From Flavobacteriaceae bacterium (GTDB lineage Bacteria > Bacteroidota > Bacteroidia > Flavobacteriales > Flavobacteriaceae), in the NCBI GenBank assembly GCA_009886265.1, contig QXZR01000108.1:1-34649 (forward strand): DNA of 34,649 nucleotides, in the 5' to 3' direction. Position 1 is the first letter of the stretch. Each line of letters begins with the position of its first letter. A program made the translations under genes and the position numbers. This document shows, in pieces, positions 1,022-8,818 of this stretch. The notes under the pieces are model-generated. The model saw nothing but the letters and a program-made list of their open reading frames with translations, ran no database searches and was not told the origin of the DNA.

Positions 1022-2338
1022 TTAGTATCTGTAATATTCAGGTTTATAAGGTCCTTGAACAGGAACGCTAATATAATCTGCTTGGTCTTTGTCTAGCTCT
1101 TCAAGTTCAACGCCTAGTTTTTCTAGGTGCAAATGCGCTACTTTTTCATCTAAGTGCTTAGGTAACATATACACCTTGTTTTCGTAACTATCTGCATTTT
1201 TCCAAAGCTCTATTTGCGCCAACGTTTGGTTTGTAAAGGAGTTACTCATCACAAAACTAGGGTGGCCCGTAGCACATCCTAGGTTTACCAACCTACCTTC
1301 AGCTAAAACAATAATGTCTTTGCCTTCAACGGTATACTTATCTACTTGTGGCTTAATTTCTACTTTGCTTTCGCCGTAGTTTCCGTTTAACCAAGCCATG
1401 TCAATTTCGTTATCAAAGTGTCCAATGTTACATACAATGGCCTTGTCCTTCATGGCACGGAAATGTCGTTCAGCAACAATGTCTTTGTTCCCTGTCGCCG
1501 TTACAATAATGTCTGCATTACCAATAACTGTGTCTAGTTTTTTTACTTCAAAACCATCCATAGAGGCTTGAAGCGCACAAATAGGATCAATTTCAGTAAC
1601 GGTTACTATGGCTCCTGCTCCTTGGAAAGAAGCAACGGTGCCTTTACCAACATCACCATATCCAGCAACAACAACGCGCTTTCCAGCAAGCATGATGTCT
1701 GTTGCACGGCGTACCGCATCAACCGCTGATTCTTTACAGCCGTATTTGTTGTCAAACTTCGACTTGGTTACCGAGTCGTTTACGTTAATGGCAGGTAACG
1801 GAAGTGTTCCGTTTTGCATACGCTCATACAAACGATGCACACCTGTGGTTGTTTCTTCTGAGAGTCCTTTGATACCTGCAGCAAGCTCAGGAAATTCATC
1901 AAGAATCATATTGGTTAGGTCGCCACCATCATCTAAAATCAAGTTTAGGGGTTTGCGATCTTCACCAAAGAATATCGTTTGTTCAATACACCAGTTGAAT
2001 TCTTCTTCATTCATGCCTTTCCAAGCATAAACTGGAATTCCAGCAGCAGCAATAGCCGCTGCAGCATGGTCTTGTGTTGAGAAAATATTACATGAACTCC
2101 ATGTAACATCTGCCCCAAGCGCTGTAAGTGTTTCGATTAGCACAGCTGTTTGAATGGTCATGTGCAAGCATCCAGCGATGCGCGCACCTTTCAGCGGCTG
2201 CTCTGCACCATATTCTTCACGCAGTGCCATCAGTCCAGGCATTTCTGCCTCTGCCAATTCAATTTCTTTTCTTCCCCAATCAGCCAAAGTAATGTCTTTG
2301 ACTTTATAAGGTACGTAGGTAGTCGTTTTCGTAGCCAT
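1022..2338 (-). CDS. ahcY: Adenosylhomocysteinase
   Basis: [30 protein letters not shown]...[18 protein letters not shown]...[33 protein letters not shown]...PYKPEYYRY. Confidence 0.97.
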
Positions 2339-2343
2339 ATTTG

Positions 2344-2351
2344 TATATTTG
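2344..2351 (+). promoter_or_regulatory. Candidate -7 box TATATTTG for the PPTase-led gene run
   Basis: Exact TAnnTTTG about 37 nt upstream of ATG 2388; no clear TTG -33 element seen. Confidence 0.45.
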
Positions 2352-2370
2352 ATTTCTAGCAATTAGCTGA

Positions 2371-2378
2371 CAAATTTA
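2371..2378 (-). promoter_or_regulatory. Candidate -7 box TAAATTTG for ahcY, with TTG (plus-strand CAA 2399-2401) at 20-nt spacing
   Basis: Exact TAnnTTTG on minus strand plus a -33 TTG that falls inside the divergent PPTase 5' end. Confidence 0.6.
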
Positions 2379-2387
2379 CAACATATC

Positions 2388-3002
2388 ATGCCCATTTACA
2401 AAAAGGACAAGATTTCTTACAATACACTTTTTTTGGTGTGGCAGATAGATGAAACTGAGGATTGGTTGCGCCAAGACATTTCACTTACCGATATGTGTAT
2501 CAACAGGTTAGGCACTATGAAATCCACTGTACACCGAAAAGGCTTTTTGAGCGTTAGGCATTTGCTCAAGGCACTTGGATACACCCCAGCTGCATTGCAT
2601 TACGATGCTTTTGGAAAACCACATTTAGCTGACGGAAAATTTATTTCCATTACGCATTCTCATAATTTTGCTGCAATAGCAGTGGGTGACAACCCCCTTG
2701 GAATTGATATCGAAAAAGAACGACCCAAAGTACAGCGTATTGCACCTAAATTCTTACATAGCTCAGAGCATATGTCAGAAGAAACAGATCGTTTTAGAAC
2801 CACGCAATGGTGCATAAAAGAAGCCGCCTACAAGGCCTTTGGTAAAAAAGGATTGAGCTTTCTTCACCATATTAGAACTACTCAAATGGAAAGTGAGCAC
2901 CCCGTTGCAGCGGTTCATATAAATGAACAAATAATTGAATTAAAAAACTGGATTTATCATTGGCCGCAATTTTCTTGTGCCATAGCCATCAAAACATCAT
3001 AA
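2388..3002 (+). CDS. 4'-phosphopantetheinyl transferase superfamily protein
   Basis: ISITHSHNFAAIAVGDNPLGIDIEKERP ... WCIKEAAYKAFGKKGLSF (Sfp-type motifs GIDIE and K-E-A-K). Confidence 0.85.
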   Translation: MPIYKKDKISYNTLFLVWQIDETEDWLRQDISLTDMCINRLGTMKSTVHRKGFLSVRHLLKALGYTPAALHYDAFGKPHLADGKFISITHSHNFAAIAVGDNPLGIDIEKERPKVQRIAPKFLHSSEHMSEETDRFRTTQWCIKEAAYKAFGKKGLSFLHHIRTTQMESEHPVAAVHINEQIIELKNWIYHWPQFSCAIAIKTS

Positions 3003-3004
3003 AA

Positions 3005-3265
3005 ATGGAAATATCTGTTGAGCTAACATTAACCCCGCTTCAAGATAATTTTGAACCCCCAATAGTTGCATATATTAAAGCACTTCGCGCTTCTGGATGC
3101 ACCATTAAAGAAAGCCCTCTTAGCACACAAGTATATGGGGAGTTTGATACCGTAATGACGCTCATTACAAATACCACCAAGAAAGCATTTGAAGAAAGTG
3201 AACATATTATTCTAAACATGAAAATAGTTAAAACCAATCGCAGTGACTATGAGCCCTCTTTTTGA
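3005..3265 (+). CDS. MTH1187/YkoF-like (DUF77) thiamine-binding-type protein
   Basis: MEISVELTLTPLQDNFEPPIVAYIKALRASGCTIKESPLSTQVYGEFDTVMTLI: size and pattern of the family; next to PnuC-like gene and THI element. Confidence 0.75.
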   Translation: MEISVELTLTPLQDNFEPPIVAYIKALRASGCTIKESPLSTQVYGEFDTVMTLITNTTKKAFEESEHIILNMKIVKTNRSDYEPSF

Positions 3266-3878
3266 GTTTTTATTCGAACAATATTCAAGCTATGCAGCTG
3301 TGGATATTACACTCGAAATTACAGCTGTTATTTTCGGCTTTTTAAGTGTTTGGTTTGCCAAGCAGAACAATATTTGGGTATTTCCCACAGGGCTTATTTC
3401 TACTGCGATATTTGTGTACTTACTTTATAAATGGGTACTGCTAGGTGACATGATGATTAACGCTTACTATTTTGCCATGAGTGTCTATGGCTGGTACATA
3501 TGGACGCGAAAAGCAAACGATGTCTTTACTCCCATATCGCGTACTACAGCAGCAGAAAAAAAGACCTCCATAATTATTTTTGTAGCAACACTCGTCTTTG
3601 TTTTTGCAATATATGAGTCGGTGGGAAAGTGGAACACCTGGACAGCCTATGTTGATACGCTTACCACAGCTGTATTTTTTGTAGGCATGTGGTTAATGGC
3701 ACGTAAAAAAATTGAAAACTGGATTTTTTGGATTGTAGGTGATGTTATTTCGGTTCCCTTATACCTTTACAAAGGACTCGCTTTTACCTCCGTTCAATAC
3801 CTTATATTTACACTCATTGCCATTTACGGTTATTTAGCATGGAAGAAAACCTTAAACAACACTCAAGCAGCTGTATAA
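3249..3878 (+). CDS. PnuC-family transporter, likely PnuT-type (thiamine) by context
   Basis: Multi-TM PnuC pattern: FAKQNNIWVFPTGLISTAIFVYLLYKW...INAYYFAMSVYGWYIWTR...ENWIFWIVGDVISVPLYLYKGLAFTSVQYLIF. Confidence 0.85.
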   Translation: MSPLFEFLFEQYSSYAAVDITLEITAVIFGFLSVWFAKQNNIWVFPTGLISTAIFVYLLYKWVLLGDMMINAYYFAMSVYGWYIWTRKANDVFTPISRTTAAEKKTSIIIFVATLVFVFAIYESVGKWNTWTAYVDTLTTAVFFVGMWLMARKKIENWIFWIVGDVISVPLYLYKGLAFTSVQYLIFTLIAIYGYLAWKKTLNNTQAAV

Positions 3879-4396
3879 GAGTTGTGTTTTTTGGACCTGA
3901 ATCTACTGGCAAAACGACGCTGGCCAAGGCTCTGGCAAAAGCATTTAAAACAAGATGGGTACCTGAATTTGCACGCGAATATCTCGAAGAAAAACGGGCA
4001 CGAACTGGTGAAATATGTACTCCAGAAGATATTTATCCTATTGCTGAAGGGCAAATGAGACTAGAAAATCAAGCACTCCAACAAGCCGATAGATTTCTAT
4101 TTTGTGATACAAATTTGCTTTCTACCGAAGTATATGCAAAAGCTTATTTTGATGGCTGGTGTGACACACGCGTTTTAGAGGCAAACAAAGTAAATCACTA
4201 CGACATATACTTTTTAACGGATATTGACGTTCCTTTTGAGCAAGACTTGTTGCGTGACCGTCCCCATCAACGGCAAGAGATGTTAGCCGCTTTTAAAACT
4301 GCGCTAAACGAACACAATATTACCTACACTATTTTACAAGGTTCCCATGAGGCACGCATTTTGCAAGTCATGGACTATTTAAAACAATATGTATGA
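3839..4396 (+). CDS. NadR-like P-loop ATPase/kinase (AAA_28 type)
   Basis: Walker A FGPESTGKTTLAKALAKAF, WVPEFAREYLEEK, LFCDTNLLSTEVYAKAYF resembling the NadR ribosylnicotinamide kinase domain; overlaps the transporter 3' end. Confidence 0.8.
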   Translation: MEENLKQHSSSCIRVVFFGPESTGKTTLAKALAKAFKTRWVPEFAREYLEEKRARTGEICTPEDIYPIAEGQMRLENQALQQADRFLFCDTNLLSTEVYAKAYFDGWCDTRVLEANKVNHYDIYFLTDIDVPFEQDLLRDRPHQRQEMLAAFKTALNEHNITYTILQGSHEARILQVMDYLKQYV

Positions 4397-5913
4397 AACA
4401 TAGTTTTTCGAAACAAGATTTAGCACTATTTGAAGATGTTGGCATCTCAACAGATGATGTAGCAGCGCAACTTACACTTCTTGAAAAAGAGAGCAATGCT
4501 ACCAAACTGAATAGGCCAGCCACTCAAGGCGACGGCATACAAGTGTTATCACAACAACAAATGCAGGACTATGCCGCAATATTTGATTCGGTAAAAGAGT
4601 CTTTTTCACTTGTTCGCTTTATACCGGCATCTGGAATGGCCACTCGGATGTTTAAATTCTTGCATTATTTTGCCAATCGCTATGATCCCAATAAGGAAAC
4701 CTTACGTAGCTATCTCAACAGAAAAAAGACATACAAACTCGCCATATTTTTGGGTGGACTTGAAAAACTCCCTTTCTACCAAAGCATAAAATCTCAAATA
4801 ACAGAACTTCAAAATGGTGCTTTTCAAAAAGATTACAGGTTTCTGTTCATTCAAAAAACAGTAGCGCTATTAAGTACGCTGCCCAAAGCGCTTATTCCTT
4901 TTCACAACTACAAGGGTGATATCCGGAATGCTGCAGAAGAACAGTTGTTTTTTTCAAAGGAATTTATGGTAGCTAACAAGTCCATGAACATTCACTTTAC
5001 CATTCCGCCAGCATCAAAAGAAAGCTTTCAGCAGTCACTTTCAAAAAGCGTTGGCCAAATAAACACAACCGCCTCTATTCAAACCCACGTTTCTTTTTCT
5101 CATCAAAAAAGAAGTACAGATGCCATTGCTGCCAAGTTGGATAACAGTCCTTATCGCGATCAAGATGGGAATCTTTTTTTCAGGGCGGCAGGCCACGGGG
5201 CACTTATCGACAACCTAAACGACTTGAAAGAAGCCGTTGTTTTTTTAAGTAATATTGATAATGTTGCTGTTGGGGCTTATCACGAAAAAGCAAGCTATTA
5301 CAAAAAAATACTGGCAGGTGTGCTGCTATCCAAGCTAGAACAAATCTATAAGTTCAGTCAGGCGCTGGAAAATCAAGCCACAACGGATTTGGATTTGATT
5401 AAAACATTTGTTCAAGATCAACTCAATGTAGGTGTTCCCAAAAACTTGTCTAGAGAAGCTTTGCACGCATTCCTACAACAAAAGCTTAACCGTCCATTAC
5501 GTGTTTGTGGTATGGTTAAAAATGAAGGTGAGCCCGGCGGAGGTCCTTTTTGGGTTGAAAAGTCAGGTCAGACGAGTCTTCAAATTGTTGAGAGTGCACA
5601 AGTCAATATGTCAAATACCGCTCAAAAAGATATTTTTAAATCGGGCACGCACTTCAATCCAGTTGATATTGTTTGCGCTACCTATGACTACAAAGGGAAT
5701 AAATATAATTTGAAAAATTTTGTAGACAACGACAGTTTCTTTGTGGTTGAAAAGTCCATGGGTGGAGTAGCTATAAAGGCCATGGAACGTCCCGGTTTGT
5801 GGAATGGTGGCATGGCAGATTGGAACACCATTTTTGTGGAAGTACCCGTCCGTACTTTTAATCCTGTGAAAACAGTAAATGATTTGTTGCGACCCATGCA
5901 CCAATCGATTTAA
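4393..5913 (+). CDS. DUF4301 family protein, possible nucleotidyltransferase-like
   Basis: FIPASGMATRMFKFL near N-terminus, LPKALIPFH, FFRAAGHGALIDNLNDLKEAVVFLSNIDNVAVGAYH; ATGA overlap with the kinase gene. Confidence 0.75.
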   Translation: MKHSFSKQDLALFEDVGISTDDVAAQLTLLEKESNATKLNRPATQGDGIQVLSQQQMQDYAAIFDSVKESFSLVRFIPASGMATRMFKFLHYFANRYDPNKETLRSYLNRKKTYKLAIFLGGLEKLPFYQSIKSQITELQNGAFQKDYRFLFIQKTVALLSTLPKALIPFHNYKGDIRNAAEEQLFFSKEFMVANKSMNIHFTIPPASKESFQQSLSKSVGQINTTASIQTHVSFSHQKRSTDAIAAKLDNSPYRDQDGNLFFRAAGHGALIDNLNDLKEAVVFLSNIDNVAVGAYHEKASYYKKILAGVLLSKLEQIYKFSQALENQATTDLDLIKTFVQDQLNVGVPKNLSREALHAFLQQKLNRPLRVCGMVKNEGEPGGGPFWVEKSGQTSLQIVESAQVNMSNTAQKDIFKSGTHFNPVDIVCATYDYKGNKYNLKNFVDNDSFFVVEKSMGGVAIKAMERPGLWNGGMADWNTIFVEVPVRTFNPVKTVNDLLRPMHQSI

Positions 5914-5919
5914 TTGAAC

Positions 5920-5927
5920 TATATTTG
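5920..5927 (+). promoter_or_regulatory. -7 box TATATTTG preceding the TPP riboswitch
   Basis: Exact TAnnTTTG directly after the DUF4301 stop codon and just before the aptamer. Confidence 0.6.
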
Positions 5928-5932
5928 TAACC

Positions 5933-6001
5933 ATCTCTAGGGGTGCCTAACGGCTGAGATTATACCCATTGAACCTGGGCAGGTAATGCTGCCAAGGAAT
6001 T
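5933..6001 (+). promoter_or_regulatory. TPP riboswitch (THI element)
   Basis: ctaggggtgcctaacggctgagattatacccattgaacctgggcaggtaatgctgccaaggaa contains the conserved GGGGUGC...CUGAGA..ACCC..UUGAACCUG core. Confidence 0.95.
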
Positions 6002-6053
6002 TGTTTCACTTAAAAACCATCGTAAATAATACCCCTTTATTTGCTTCACGCAA

Positions 6054-8261
6054 ATGAAATACATTATTACACTTATGCTTGGTTGTAGCCTGATGGCACA
6101 ACAAGCAAACACCACACAAGACACACTCACAGCAAATACCGTAGCCCTATCATCTGTTACGGTTAGCGCCCTTAGGGCCAATGAAGATACGCCTATGGCG
6201 TTTACCAATACCTCTGAAGAAGAGTTAAACAAACAAAACTTGGGGAAAGACCTCCCTGTTTTGTTGCGCTTTTTACCCAATGTAGTGACCACTAGCGACG
6301 CAGGTGCTGGGGTTGGATATACTGGAATTAGGGTTCGGGGTAGCGACGCCACACGAGTTAATGTTACCATTAACGGTATTGCTTATAACGATGCCGAATC
6401 GCACGGAACTTTTTGGGTAAATCTCTCAGATTTTGCCTCTTCTGTTTCCGATTTGCAGTTGCAACGTGGCGTGGGCACATCTACCAATGGAGCTGCTGCT
6501 TTTGGCGCCAGTCTCAACATTAATACAACTGAGCCATCACAGGACGCTTATGCATTGTTGTCTTCTAGCGCTGGTAGCTTTAATACCTTTAAGAATACGG
6601 TCAAGTTTTCAACTGGGCTATCCAAAAGCGGATTTGAGTTCAGCGGACGCCTTTCTGGCATAACTTCTGACGGCTACATTGATCGCGCATCGTCTAACCT
6701 TAAAGGTTATTTCTTACAGGGAACCTATAGCAGCGTCAATACCAAAATAAAAGCATTGACCTTTGGTGGTCATGAGCGTACGTATCAAGCTTGGTATGGA
6801 GTCACGGCTGATACGTTATCAGTTAATAGAACCTATAACCCTGCTGGAGAACAGTACGACGAAGCAGGAGTATTGGAAGGCTATTACAATGATCAAGTAG
6901 ATAATTACAATCAAGATCACACCCAATTGCATATTGAACAGCGCCTAAGCAACTCTAGCAGGTTGTCCCTAGGGCTAAATTACACGCACGGCTATGGCTA
7001 CTATCAAGAGTTTTACGATTTGTGGTATGATCAAAATGTAAGTTTTGGAGGAGATACAGATTACGGCTATTTAAAATTACCACCGCTTTCAGTCAATGGG
7101 CAAAGCATAACAGCCACTGAAAACGCAGTGCGTAAGTGGTTAGACAACGATTTTTATGCCGCCAATGTGTTGTATCATTATCAAAAAGGCAAACACAACA
7201 TTAGCGCTGGTGCTTATTACAGTTCTTATGAAGGACTACACTTTGGCGAACTTATGTGGGCCAACAGGGTTGATGTGAATCCAGGTCATCGCTTTTATGA
7301 AAATACAGGTAAGAAAAAGGACGGTAATATCTTTTACAAATGGGATGTATCCGTCAATGAAAAATGGCATTTATATGCAGATGCACAACTTCGCTGGGTA
7401 GACTACAAGGTTAGTGGAGAAGTTGCGGGGCCAGAAAGCTTTACCGTAAACGACGCGCATACATTTTTTAACCCTAAAGCAGGTGTGTTGTATAAACCCA
7501 ATAACAACAACCAATTTTATATCTCTTTTGCCAAGGCACATAAAGAGCCAAACCGCACAGATTTTGAAAATGGTAGCCCTGTCCCAGAAGCATTAGATGA
7601 CTTAGAATTTGGATGGCGCTGGAAAACAGCAGATGCTTTTTTAAACGCAAATATTTATTTTATGAGCTACAAGAACCAACTGGTGCTCACAGGCGCCATT
7701 GACCAAGTGGGTGCACCTATCCGTGCCAATTCTGGAGACAGTTACCGCCGTGGTATTGAGCTAGAAGGCGGATGGAATATTACTTCTAATATAAATTGGC
7801 AAGCCAACGTAGCATGGAGTAGAAATAGGAATAGAGATAAGTTCTTTAAACGCGATGGTGTGTTGCAGTCACTGGGGGATACGCAGCTGGCATTTTCACC
7901 TTCGCTGGTTGCTTCCCAGCAATTAACGTATGCATCAGACAATTGGTCTGTTTCGTTTGTGAGCAAGTATGTGGGAGAGCAGTATATGGGGAATATAGAC
8001 GCCGAACTTTCTAAGCTGGATGGTTATTTGATAAACGACATTCAAGTACAGGCGTTGTTGCTGAATAAGCAAAATGGGCCTAGTCTGAATCTAAACCTAC
8101 ACTTGCACAATATTTTTGATGAGTTGATAAGCTCAAATGGGTATTTCTATACGTATGACGATGATTATTCTGTACCAAATGTTGTGACTACTATTGAAGG
8201 GGTTGGATACTACCCACAGGCAGGGCGCCATTTTATGGCCGGACTTACGCTTACATTTTAA
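6054..8261 (+). CDS. TonB-dependent outer membrane receptor, likely thiamine or thiamine-compound uptake
   Basis: Signal peptide, plug domain (VTVSALRANEDTPMAFTNTSEEELNKQNLGKDLPVLLRFLPNVVTTSDAGAGVGYTGIRVRGSDATRVNVTINGIAYNDAESHGTFWVNL), C-terminal beta strand GRHFMAGLTLTF; TPP riboswitch upstream. Confidence 0.92.
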   Translation: MKYIITLMLGCSLMAQQANTTQDTLTANTVALSSVTVSALRANEDTPMAFTNTSEEELNKQNLGKDLPVLLRFLPNVVTTSDAGAGVGYTGIRVRGSDATRVNVTINGIAYNDAESHGTFWVNLSDFASSVSDLQLQRGVGTSTNGAAAFGASLNINTTEPSQDAYALLSSSAGSFNTFKNTVKFSTGLSKSGFEFSGRLSGITSDGYIDRASSNLKGYFLQGTYSSVNTKIKALTFGGHERTYQAWYGVTADTLSVNRTYNPAGEQYDEAGVLEGYYNDQVDNYNQDHTQLHIEQRLSNSSRLSLGLNYTHGYGYYQEFYDLWYDQNVSFGGDTDYGYLKLPPLSVNGQSITATENAVRKWLDNDFYAANVLYHYQKGKHNISAGAYYSSYEGLHFGELMWANRVDVNPGHRFYENTGKKKDGNIFYKWDVSVNEKWHLYADAQLRWVDYKVSGEVAGPESFTVNDAHTFFNPKAGVLYKPNNNNQFYISFAKAHKEPNRTDFENGSPVPEALDDLEFGWRWKTADAFLNANIYFMSYKNQLVLTGAIDQVGAPIRANSGDSYRRGIELEGGWNITSNINWQANVAWSRNRNRDKFFKRDGVLQSLGDTQLAFSPSLVASQQLTYASDNWSVSFVSKYVGEQYMGNIDAELSKLDGYLINDIQVQALLLNKQNGPSLNLNLHLHNIFDELISSNGYFYTYDDDYSVPNVVTTIEGVGYYPQAGRHFMAGLTLTF

Positions 8262-8362: not shown

Positions 8363-8788
8363 TTAATTATAAATACGTACCACAGTACCACTCTGTTGAA
8401 CTTTGTAAAATAGCAGGCTATAGGTGGCCCCTTCTGTAAGGGGTTGGCCTGTGGCCAAGCTATACTGATAGTCTTCGCAAGAGCAAGAAGCAGTAGCGCT
8501 AACCAAACCATCAGTTTGTAAGGTAGAACAGCTTTTAAGCTCGTGATTTGGGCAACTGGCTTCCCAAGCCATAATGGTATTGCCATTTAAATTATAAAGC
8601 AGCAAACCTCTTATGCCGTCATTAGGCCAATAAAGGCTGCCGCCTGGATAGCTTAAATTATTAAAAGATGGTAGTGCCAAATTAATAGTCAGGTTAAAAC
8701 TCTTTTCAAGCAAAAACGGGTTGCGTTCTACAGCTGTCTTTGAGCAGCCCAACACCACCAAAAAAACGATAAGTACTATGTATTTCAT
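8363..8788 (-). CDS. Small lipoprotein with degenerate Rieske-like C-terminal half
   Basis: MKYIVLIVFLVVLGCSKT lipobox; CPNHELKSCS...SCSCEDYQYSLATGQPL resembles a Rieske fold without the second His ligand. Confidence 0.6.
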   Translation of the reverse strand: MKYIVLIVFLVVLGCSKTAVERNPFLLEKSFNLTINLALPSFNNLSYPGGSLYWPNDGIRGLLLYNLNGNTIMAWEASCPNHELKSCSTLQTDGLVSATASCSCEDYQYSLATGQPLTEGATYSLLFYKVQQSGTVVRIYN

Positions 8789-8818
8789 TCGAAGATTATT
8801 CAAAATTGAGGAAAATTG

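Follow-up and report, generated by a model that had tools for sequence, protein, structure and literature searches.

A locus at positions 2388–8261 of the window, i.e. the whole stretch of 34,649 nt that was analyzed (contig QXZR01000108.1, assembly GCA_009886265.1, a Flavobacteriaceae bacterium), is very likely a thiamine uptake locus. Its trapping enzyme is probably a NadR-family kinase, here called KIN, which by genomic inference would convert thiamine to thiamine monophosphate (TMP) and act with ThiL, in replacement of thiamine pyrophosphokinase (TPK). These assignments rest on gene content, conservation, co-occurrence, phylogeny, and the sequence support for a promoter element and a hairpin ahead of the receptor gene. 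The kind of system is already known; the TPK-replacing enzyme and a switch at the receptor start codon are its new parts.

Seven parts were found with Pfam and Rfam, all on the forward strand, in the order 4'-phosphopantetheinyl transferase (PPTase), thiamine-binding protein (TBP), PnuC, KIN, DUF4301, thiamine pyrophosphate (TPP) aptamer and TonB receptor. KIN (3839–4396, 185 aa; AAA_28, PF13521, 145.8 bits) is a P-loop kinase of the NadR ribosylnicotinamide kinase (RNK) type, with the P-loop near the protein start, and is a predicted TMP-forming thiamine kinase. It is preceded by a PnuC-family inner-membrane transporter (ATG at 3249, to 3878), a predicted thiamine transporter of the PnuT type, and by TBP (3005–3265, 86 aa), a protein of the YkoF/MTH1187 type. 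DUF4301 (4393–5913; PF14134, 567.5 bits) follows, and the TonB-dependent outer-membrane receptor (6054–8261; PF00593/PF07715), a predicted thiamine receptor, lies directly 3' of the riboswitch (THI element). Adjacent genes overlap by 17 nt (TBP/PnuC, an overlap kept among relatives), 40 nt (PnuC/KIN) and 4 nt (KIN/DUF4301, ATGA). A prior reading of the window from its letters only (the sequence-only reading) had given this order from TBP to the receptor and these overlaps, and both were confirmed.

For relatives, genome contigs were scanned with a DUF4301 alignment, which returned 80 loci, almost all from Flavobacteriia, and further genome regions were added; as the 80 loci were retrieved via DUF4301, they cannot tell how frequently KIN occurs without it. 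The common neighborhood was ahcY, PPTase, (PcrB), TBP, PnuC, KIN, DUF4301, (ArfB), THI element, receptor, a small lipoprotein-like gene and greA. Because the same arrangement recurs in dozens of Flavobacteriaceae loci, a chance arrangement was ruled out, and the co-occurrence pattern led us to reject KIN as a chance neighbor.

Gene families were counted independently of DUF4301 across 51 Flavobacteriaceae genera. ThiL was above cut-off in 51/51, TPK was present in 2/51, and ThiE reached a real score in 16/51. AAA_28 proteins occurred in all 51 genera and KIN proper in 49; the other two, G100 and G113, have only a second AAA_28 protein, KIN2. PnuC was found in 50 genera, and in 48 the KIN and PnuC matches were about 30 nt apart. 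Of the two genera without KIN, G100 has TPK, and G113 has ThiE but neither TPK nor PnuC. All 35 genera lacking ThiE have ThiL and KIN and lack TPK, and the window's own genome (1.45 Mb, 82% complete) is among them. These genera encode an enzyme whose substrate is TMP without ThiE or TPK, therefore either a thiamine kinase or uptake must supply TMP; the best candidate source is KIN, since it adjoins the transporter and is present in all 35. The source of TMP is thus a gap in the vitamin B1 metabolism of Flavobacteriaceae, where most genera lack TPK and many lack ThiE yet keep ThiL. A NadR-family thiamine kinase would close this gap and name a gene profiled only as AAA_28 or NadR-like, and auxotrophy predictions across this large family would change.

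The same counts bear on the substrate, which the sequence-only reading had left as thiamine or a precursor. THI elements are generally known to govern precursor transporters in other bacteria too, so the system could import the pyrimidine precursor hydroxymethylpyrimidine (HMP), with KIN as an HMP kinase; ThiE, however, is required for HMP use and is missing from 35/51 genera, all of them KIN-bearing, and this alternative is extremely unlikely. Since most genomes lack ThiE, the thiamine half of the earlier proposal is likely to hold and the HMP half is not.

The TPK catalytic domain (PF04263) was absent from every locus protein and from the window's genome. Ninety-nine genomes were sampled across the phylum; among those of the window's class, 16 had KIN without TPK, 4 had TPK without KIN, 4 had both, and none lacked both. 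Given the margins, the chance that this last cell is empty is 70/10626 (about 0.007, relatedness ignored). The 4 genomes with both are Flavobacterium-like and carry a fused KIN-DUF4301 gene. On the DUF4301 tree, KIN was lost at 9 loci of the Flavobacterium lineage in at least 3 separate events, and all 9 genomes are TPK-positive; KIN was not found elsewhere in these genomes (G084 and eight others), the eight giving only weak matches of 22–28 bits. In six of the TPK regions examined outside the class, THI element, receptor and TPK stood consecutively, as has been described for Bacteroides (PMC5613172). In another family of the window's class, KIN, a THI element (58.6 bits) and a TonB-dependent receptor form a locus (L175). 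KIN seems to have replaced TPK at its place.

That exchange of position also suits a second possibility, in which KIN is itself a pyrophosphokinase that converts thiamine directly to TPP. We consider it very unlikely, as ThiL in 51/51 genera, including the 35 without ThiE, points to a TMP intermediate, and RNK-type enzymes transfer a single phosphate. As a separate observation, a TPK-like protein adjoins PnuC, KIN and receptor at one locus (L179:14026–14586; 66 bits to Flavobacterium TPK); its catalytic motifs are gone, it does not match the Pfam TPK model, and it is a decayed or repurposed TPK. Decayed TPK as a general relic was dropped, being absent from Flavobacteriaceae apart from one weak fragment.

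The closest characterized relatives of KIN are the NadR RNK domains. The match to TIGR01526 was restricted to model positions 164–318, the RNK kinase domain, and NadR structures were matched too; the score of 95.1 bits is below the curated NadR cut-off of 341, and the nicotinamide mononucleotide adenylyltransferase (NMNAT) domain is absent. KIN and NadR RNK domains formed separate groups in the tree (support 91/80), and the lid motif is D-[DP]-[LQ]-R-[DE] (also as D[DP]LR[DE]) in KIN vs. mostly D-G (DG-R) in NadR. Viral contigs were searched and held no KIN relative. KIN2 (L150:4703–5239; G000:C60), of about 180 aa and present in most Flavobacteriaceae, is only distantly related to KIN. One relative (G072, L176:8363–9808) has KIN fused with an aldose 1-epimerase domain, and a good THI element and a receptor lie 3' of the fused gene.

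This kinship raises the alternative that PnuC and KIN are a nicotinamide riboside (NR) salvage pair, in which PnuC would import NR, KIN would make nicotinamide mononucleotide, and the THI element would control the neighboring receptor only. The only solved relative of PnuC is an NR transporter, and no THI element lies ahead of the PnuC and KIN genes, which suits this alternative as well. True clusters of PnuC beside full-length NadR, however, were found at different loci (L155, L174, L183, L186), even within the family (L155, of Flavobacteriaceae, where an Rfam scan gave no THI element), and the PnuCs of these clusters occupy other branches of the tree; KIN stands as a group by itself and has no NMNAT domain. 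NR salvage also leaves the orphan ThiL, the complementarity with TPK and the limitation of kinase loss to a TPK-positive lineage unexplained, and we regard it as very unlikely. The sequence-only reading would have been refuted if clusters homologous to the window's commonly lacked THI elements and lay beside NAD genes, which was not the pattern found. Its proposal that a NadR-like kinase traps thiamine after PnuT-type transport is supported by the TPK complementarity, by ThiL without ThiE, by KIN loss only beside TPK, by the separation of KIN and PnuC from NadR-linked relatives, and by a THI element in nearly all relatives. Receptor similarity was not used as a criterion, the NadR-linked receptor giving 153 bits vs. 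160 bits and up for some THI-linked receptors.

The window's PnuC belongs to its family by PF04973 (181 bits, cut-off 27.3). In the PnuC tree, one branch (support 100/99) held it together with other KIN-linked PnuCs, one TPK-linked PnuC (L193) and second copies, including one with its own THI element (L162), and NadR-linked PnuCs fell outside it. It therefore groups with thiamine-linked and not with NR-linked PnuCs, which supports the predicted transport of thiamine; the tree lends support without deciding the matter, since a second TPK-linked and some distant KIN-linked PnuCs lie outside the branch. At L162 (8726–8831, G141), a strong THI element (62.4 bits) stands immediately 5' of the second PnuC copy, which is independent evidence for thiamine PnuCs in the family. 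The WxxWxxxD/N motif was dropped as a substrate marker, D and N both being present in thiamine- and NR-linked proteins. A second distinct subfamily, PnuC2, occurs directly 3' of the receptor (L071:20132–20728, L153:9321–9893), and at L153 the usual PnuC between TBP and KIN is gone. In G110, KIN is retained in the locus and the PnuC behind the receptor is of the PnuC2 subfamily, which suggests exchangeable transporters serving one substrate. TBP passes the PF01910 cut-off (34.1 bits, cut-off 24.9), falls short of the stricter TIGR00106 (16.3 vs. 54.7), and weakly matches the SP2199 and YkoF structures.

The TPP aptamer (5929–6016) is divergent. It was missed by the default Rfam scan because its RF00059 score of 43.8 bits is under the gathering score of 54.3, and was recovered by a relaxed search (E 1.7e-7 in 401 nt); relatives scored 35–45 bits, but 58–62 bits were reached at loci elsewhere in the class or family. 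The ligand-binding core is intact (CUGAGA ... ACC ... GAACCUG) and stands before the predicted thiamine receptor gene. The claim of a THI element before the receptor only was upheld: none was found in 2000–4500, upstream of the inner-membrane operon. Just 5' of the first stem, TATATTTG (5920–5927, forward strand) matches TAnnTTTG, the -7 box of Bacteroidota promoters. This element was found near the aptamer's 5' side in 52/60 loci, in most cases no more than a few bases from the first stem; the frequency in random windows was 6.2%. With a promoter element beside the aptamer, the receptor is probably transcribed as a separate unit and would be the sole gene of the locus under the riboswitch. 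The locus had been described as split around the riboswitch; this arrangement is real, and two transcription units, with the receptor promoter beside the aptamer, would explain it.

Between aptamer and start codon, 78 loci carried GAATAATnnCC[CT]C(T)nATTCG...AUG or a close variant, in which CC[CT]C(U)n is complementary to AnGGGG of the aptamer. The lengths of the A-run and T-run covary: 49/53 leaders with CCCC and four T had three A, and 19/22 with CCTC had four to six A. The window's leader has one A and three T, with AGGGGT (5939–5944) in the aptamer complementary to 6031–6036. Two hairpins can form in this expression platform. Hairpin A (6024–6042) pairs AAATAA (6024–6029) with TTATTT (6037–6042) and holds CCCC (6032–6035) in its loop, a motif kept in the 78 THI-bearing receptor leaders; hairpin B (6039–6055) pairs ATTTGC (6039–6044) with GCAAAT (6050–6055), including the A and U of the receptor AUG. 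They share ATTC (ATTT in the window) and are mutually exclusive. As a MAFFT alignment misaligned the two sequence classes of the platform, stems were folded individually; hairpin B, with the AUG paired, was found in 34/37 leaders folded (mean z -3.6 vs. shuffles), and the stem sequences differ between lineages. The simplest reading of these sequences is a translational off-switch, in which binding of TPP is predicted to shut the gene off. With TPP bound, the aptamer would retain GGGG, leaving the downstream CCCC free, so that hairpin B forms and hides the receptor AUG; with TPP absent, AnGGGG would pair with CCCC(U)n, hairpin A would be favored and the AUG would be open, an order of events that we infer. 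The mode of TPP riboswitch action in Bacteroidota has been called uncertain (PMC5613172), and a conserved start-codon switch makes it testable.

Facilitated diffusion is the mode described for PnuT-type transport, and cells therefore need an enzyme that traps thiamine. In the proposed pathway, the TonB receptor would move thiamine across the outer membrane, the PnuT-type PnuC would equilibrate it across the inner membrane, and the small cytosolic TBP may hold it there. KIN would phosphorylate thiamine to TMP, which could not exit the cell, and ThiL, encoded elsewhere, would convert TMP to TPP, whose feedback would act on the receptor alone. KIN and ThiL would so take two steps in place of the one taken by Tnr3/TPK in the OMthi-pnuT-tnr3 system of Bacteroides.

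Several observations weigh against this account. No THI element precedes the inner-membrane operon (PnuC, KIN) itself, which leaves TPP control there unsupported. TPK was present in 25/25 Flavobacterium-lineage genomes tested; because every sampled Flavobacterium has it, this counts as one event, and many of these genomes also retain KIN. The genomes are related and the counts not independent, and the TPK search used one Pfam model. Among the transporters, the TPK-linked PnuC of L189 and some distant KIN-linked PnuCs lie outside the well-supported branch, and the WxxWxxxD/N motif fails to separate thiamine from NR PnuCs. Thiamine kinases of the ThiK/YcfN type (APH fold) and KIN2 may still be alternative sources of TMP.

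The closest known system is OMthi-pnuT-tnr3 of Bacteroides (BT2390, BT2396-2397; PMC5613172). Both combine a THI-controlled TonB receptor, a PnuC-family transporter and a cytosolic enzyme trapping thiamine by phosphorylation, and in some Bacteroides cases the operons are split too; unlike there, the flavobacterial trapping enzyme would be a NadR-type kinase and not a TPK, the locus adds TBP and DUF4301, and transporter and kinase are without their own THI element. As in PnuC-NadR salvage of NR, a PnuC-family transporter adjoins an RNK-fold kinase, but KIN has another lid motif and no NMNAT domain, NadR-linked PnuCs branch apart, and the NadR-linked cluster scanned had no THI element. The enterobacterial ThiK and ThiL salvage, as generally known, likewise leads from thiamine via TMP to TPP in two steps, whereas ThiK has an aminoglycoside-phosphotransferase fold and KIN is a P-loop kinase, the two not being homologous as far as known. 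PnuT and Omr1 were reportedly first proposed in a comparative study of 2002. A literature search found nothing on COG3172 together with thiamin, and nothing on this locus for a NadR-type thiamin kinase or for TPP riboswitches with TonB receptors in Flavobacteria, although subscription papers were mostly outside the search and an earlier mention is possible.

DUF4301, which the sequence-only reading had placed in the locus as an uncharacterized gene, is present and conserved there. By its structure model it is a protein of the UDP-sugar pyrophosphorylase fold, a nucleotidyltransferase, and it is also found where kinase and transporter are missing. The AlphaFold2 model built on an alignment of 33 sequences (pLDDT 88.9, pTM 0.90) matched UDP-glucose/UDP-GlcNAc pyrophosphorylases (UDPGP) in Foldseek, the best being 3r3i (E 5e-11, probability 1.0, full-length TM-score 0.42); the PF01704 score was 17.5 bits, below the curated cut-off of 22. 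Its invariant motifs GHG, D-N (mostly IDN) and PVKTxxDLL recall the UDPGP superfamily. Unlike UDPGP, it has the nucleotide-binding loop PASGAASRM and, ahead of the PK motif, a long helical insertion, with full-length TM-scores of about 0.4–0.5.

KIN and DUF4301 are fused in 27/84 loci, in at least 2 lineages (Flavobacterium, Croceivirga), and overlap by 4 nt where unfused. Together with the nucleotidyltransferase fold, this would fit a two-step kinase and nucleotidyltransferase, like NadR or RibF, whose product, a nucleotidylated vitamin or sugar, would have nothing to do with the supply of TPP. Such a role is very improbable, however, as DUF4301 occurs alone, without KIN or PnuC and with varied neighbors, in many other bacterial genomes, outlives KIN at the 9 loci of kinase loss and is missing from two KIN-bearing Flavobacteriaceae genomes, G029 and G088, where PnuC and KIN are present. 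The fusion had been taken as strong evidence for one enzyme and was downgraded, given the survival of DUF4301 and the fusion of KIN with aldose epimerase in one relative, which makes fusion alone weak evidence. Outside the locus, the neighbors of DUF4301 showed no consistent link to thiamine. Since it is solitary elsewhere and survives KIN loss, it probably has its own role, perhaps in sugar-nucleotide metabolism, and shares the operon; because it also occurs alone, a thiamine role is doubtful. A version in which DUF4301 would link the TMP formed by KIN to a nucleotide, yielding a thiamine dinucleotide (adenosine thiamine diphosphate, for example), was considered by analogy with the kinase and adenylyltransferase of RibF and NadR, and its chance is slight in the extreme. 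If true, a dedicated enzyme for such compounds would be encoded in a vitamin B1 uptake operon; we know of no earlier dedicated enzyme for thiamine dinucleotides such as adenosine thiamine diphosphate.

Upstream, the Sfp-type PPTase (2388–3002, forward strand; PF01648, 41.4 bits) has the same place in most relatives, and its stop codon is 2 nt from the TBP ATG. Downstream, the small lipoprotein-like gene (8363–8803, minus strand) shows a CPNH...CSC pattern of Rieske-like type, matches no Pfam model above cut-off, and is kept behind the receptor, in opposite orientation, in most relatives. In one Aquimarina genome (L103), TBP, PnuC, KIN and the receptor were lost from the site and DUF4301 was kept; this genome is without KIN and without TPK. 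A typical Flavobacterium locus was also found on a contig filed as a Klebsiella pneumoniae metagenome-assembled genome (L063), indicating a mislabelled or contaminated bin.

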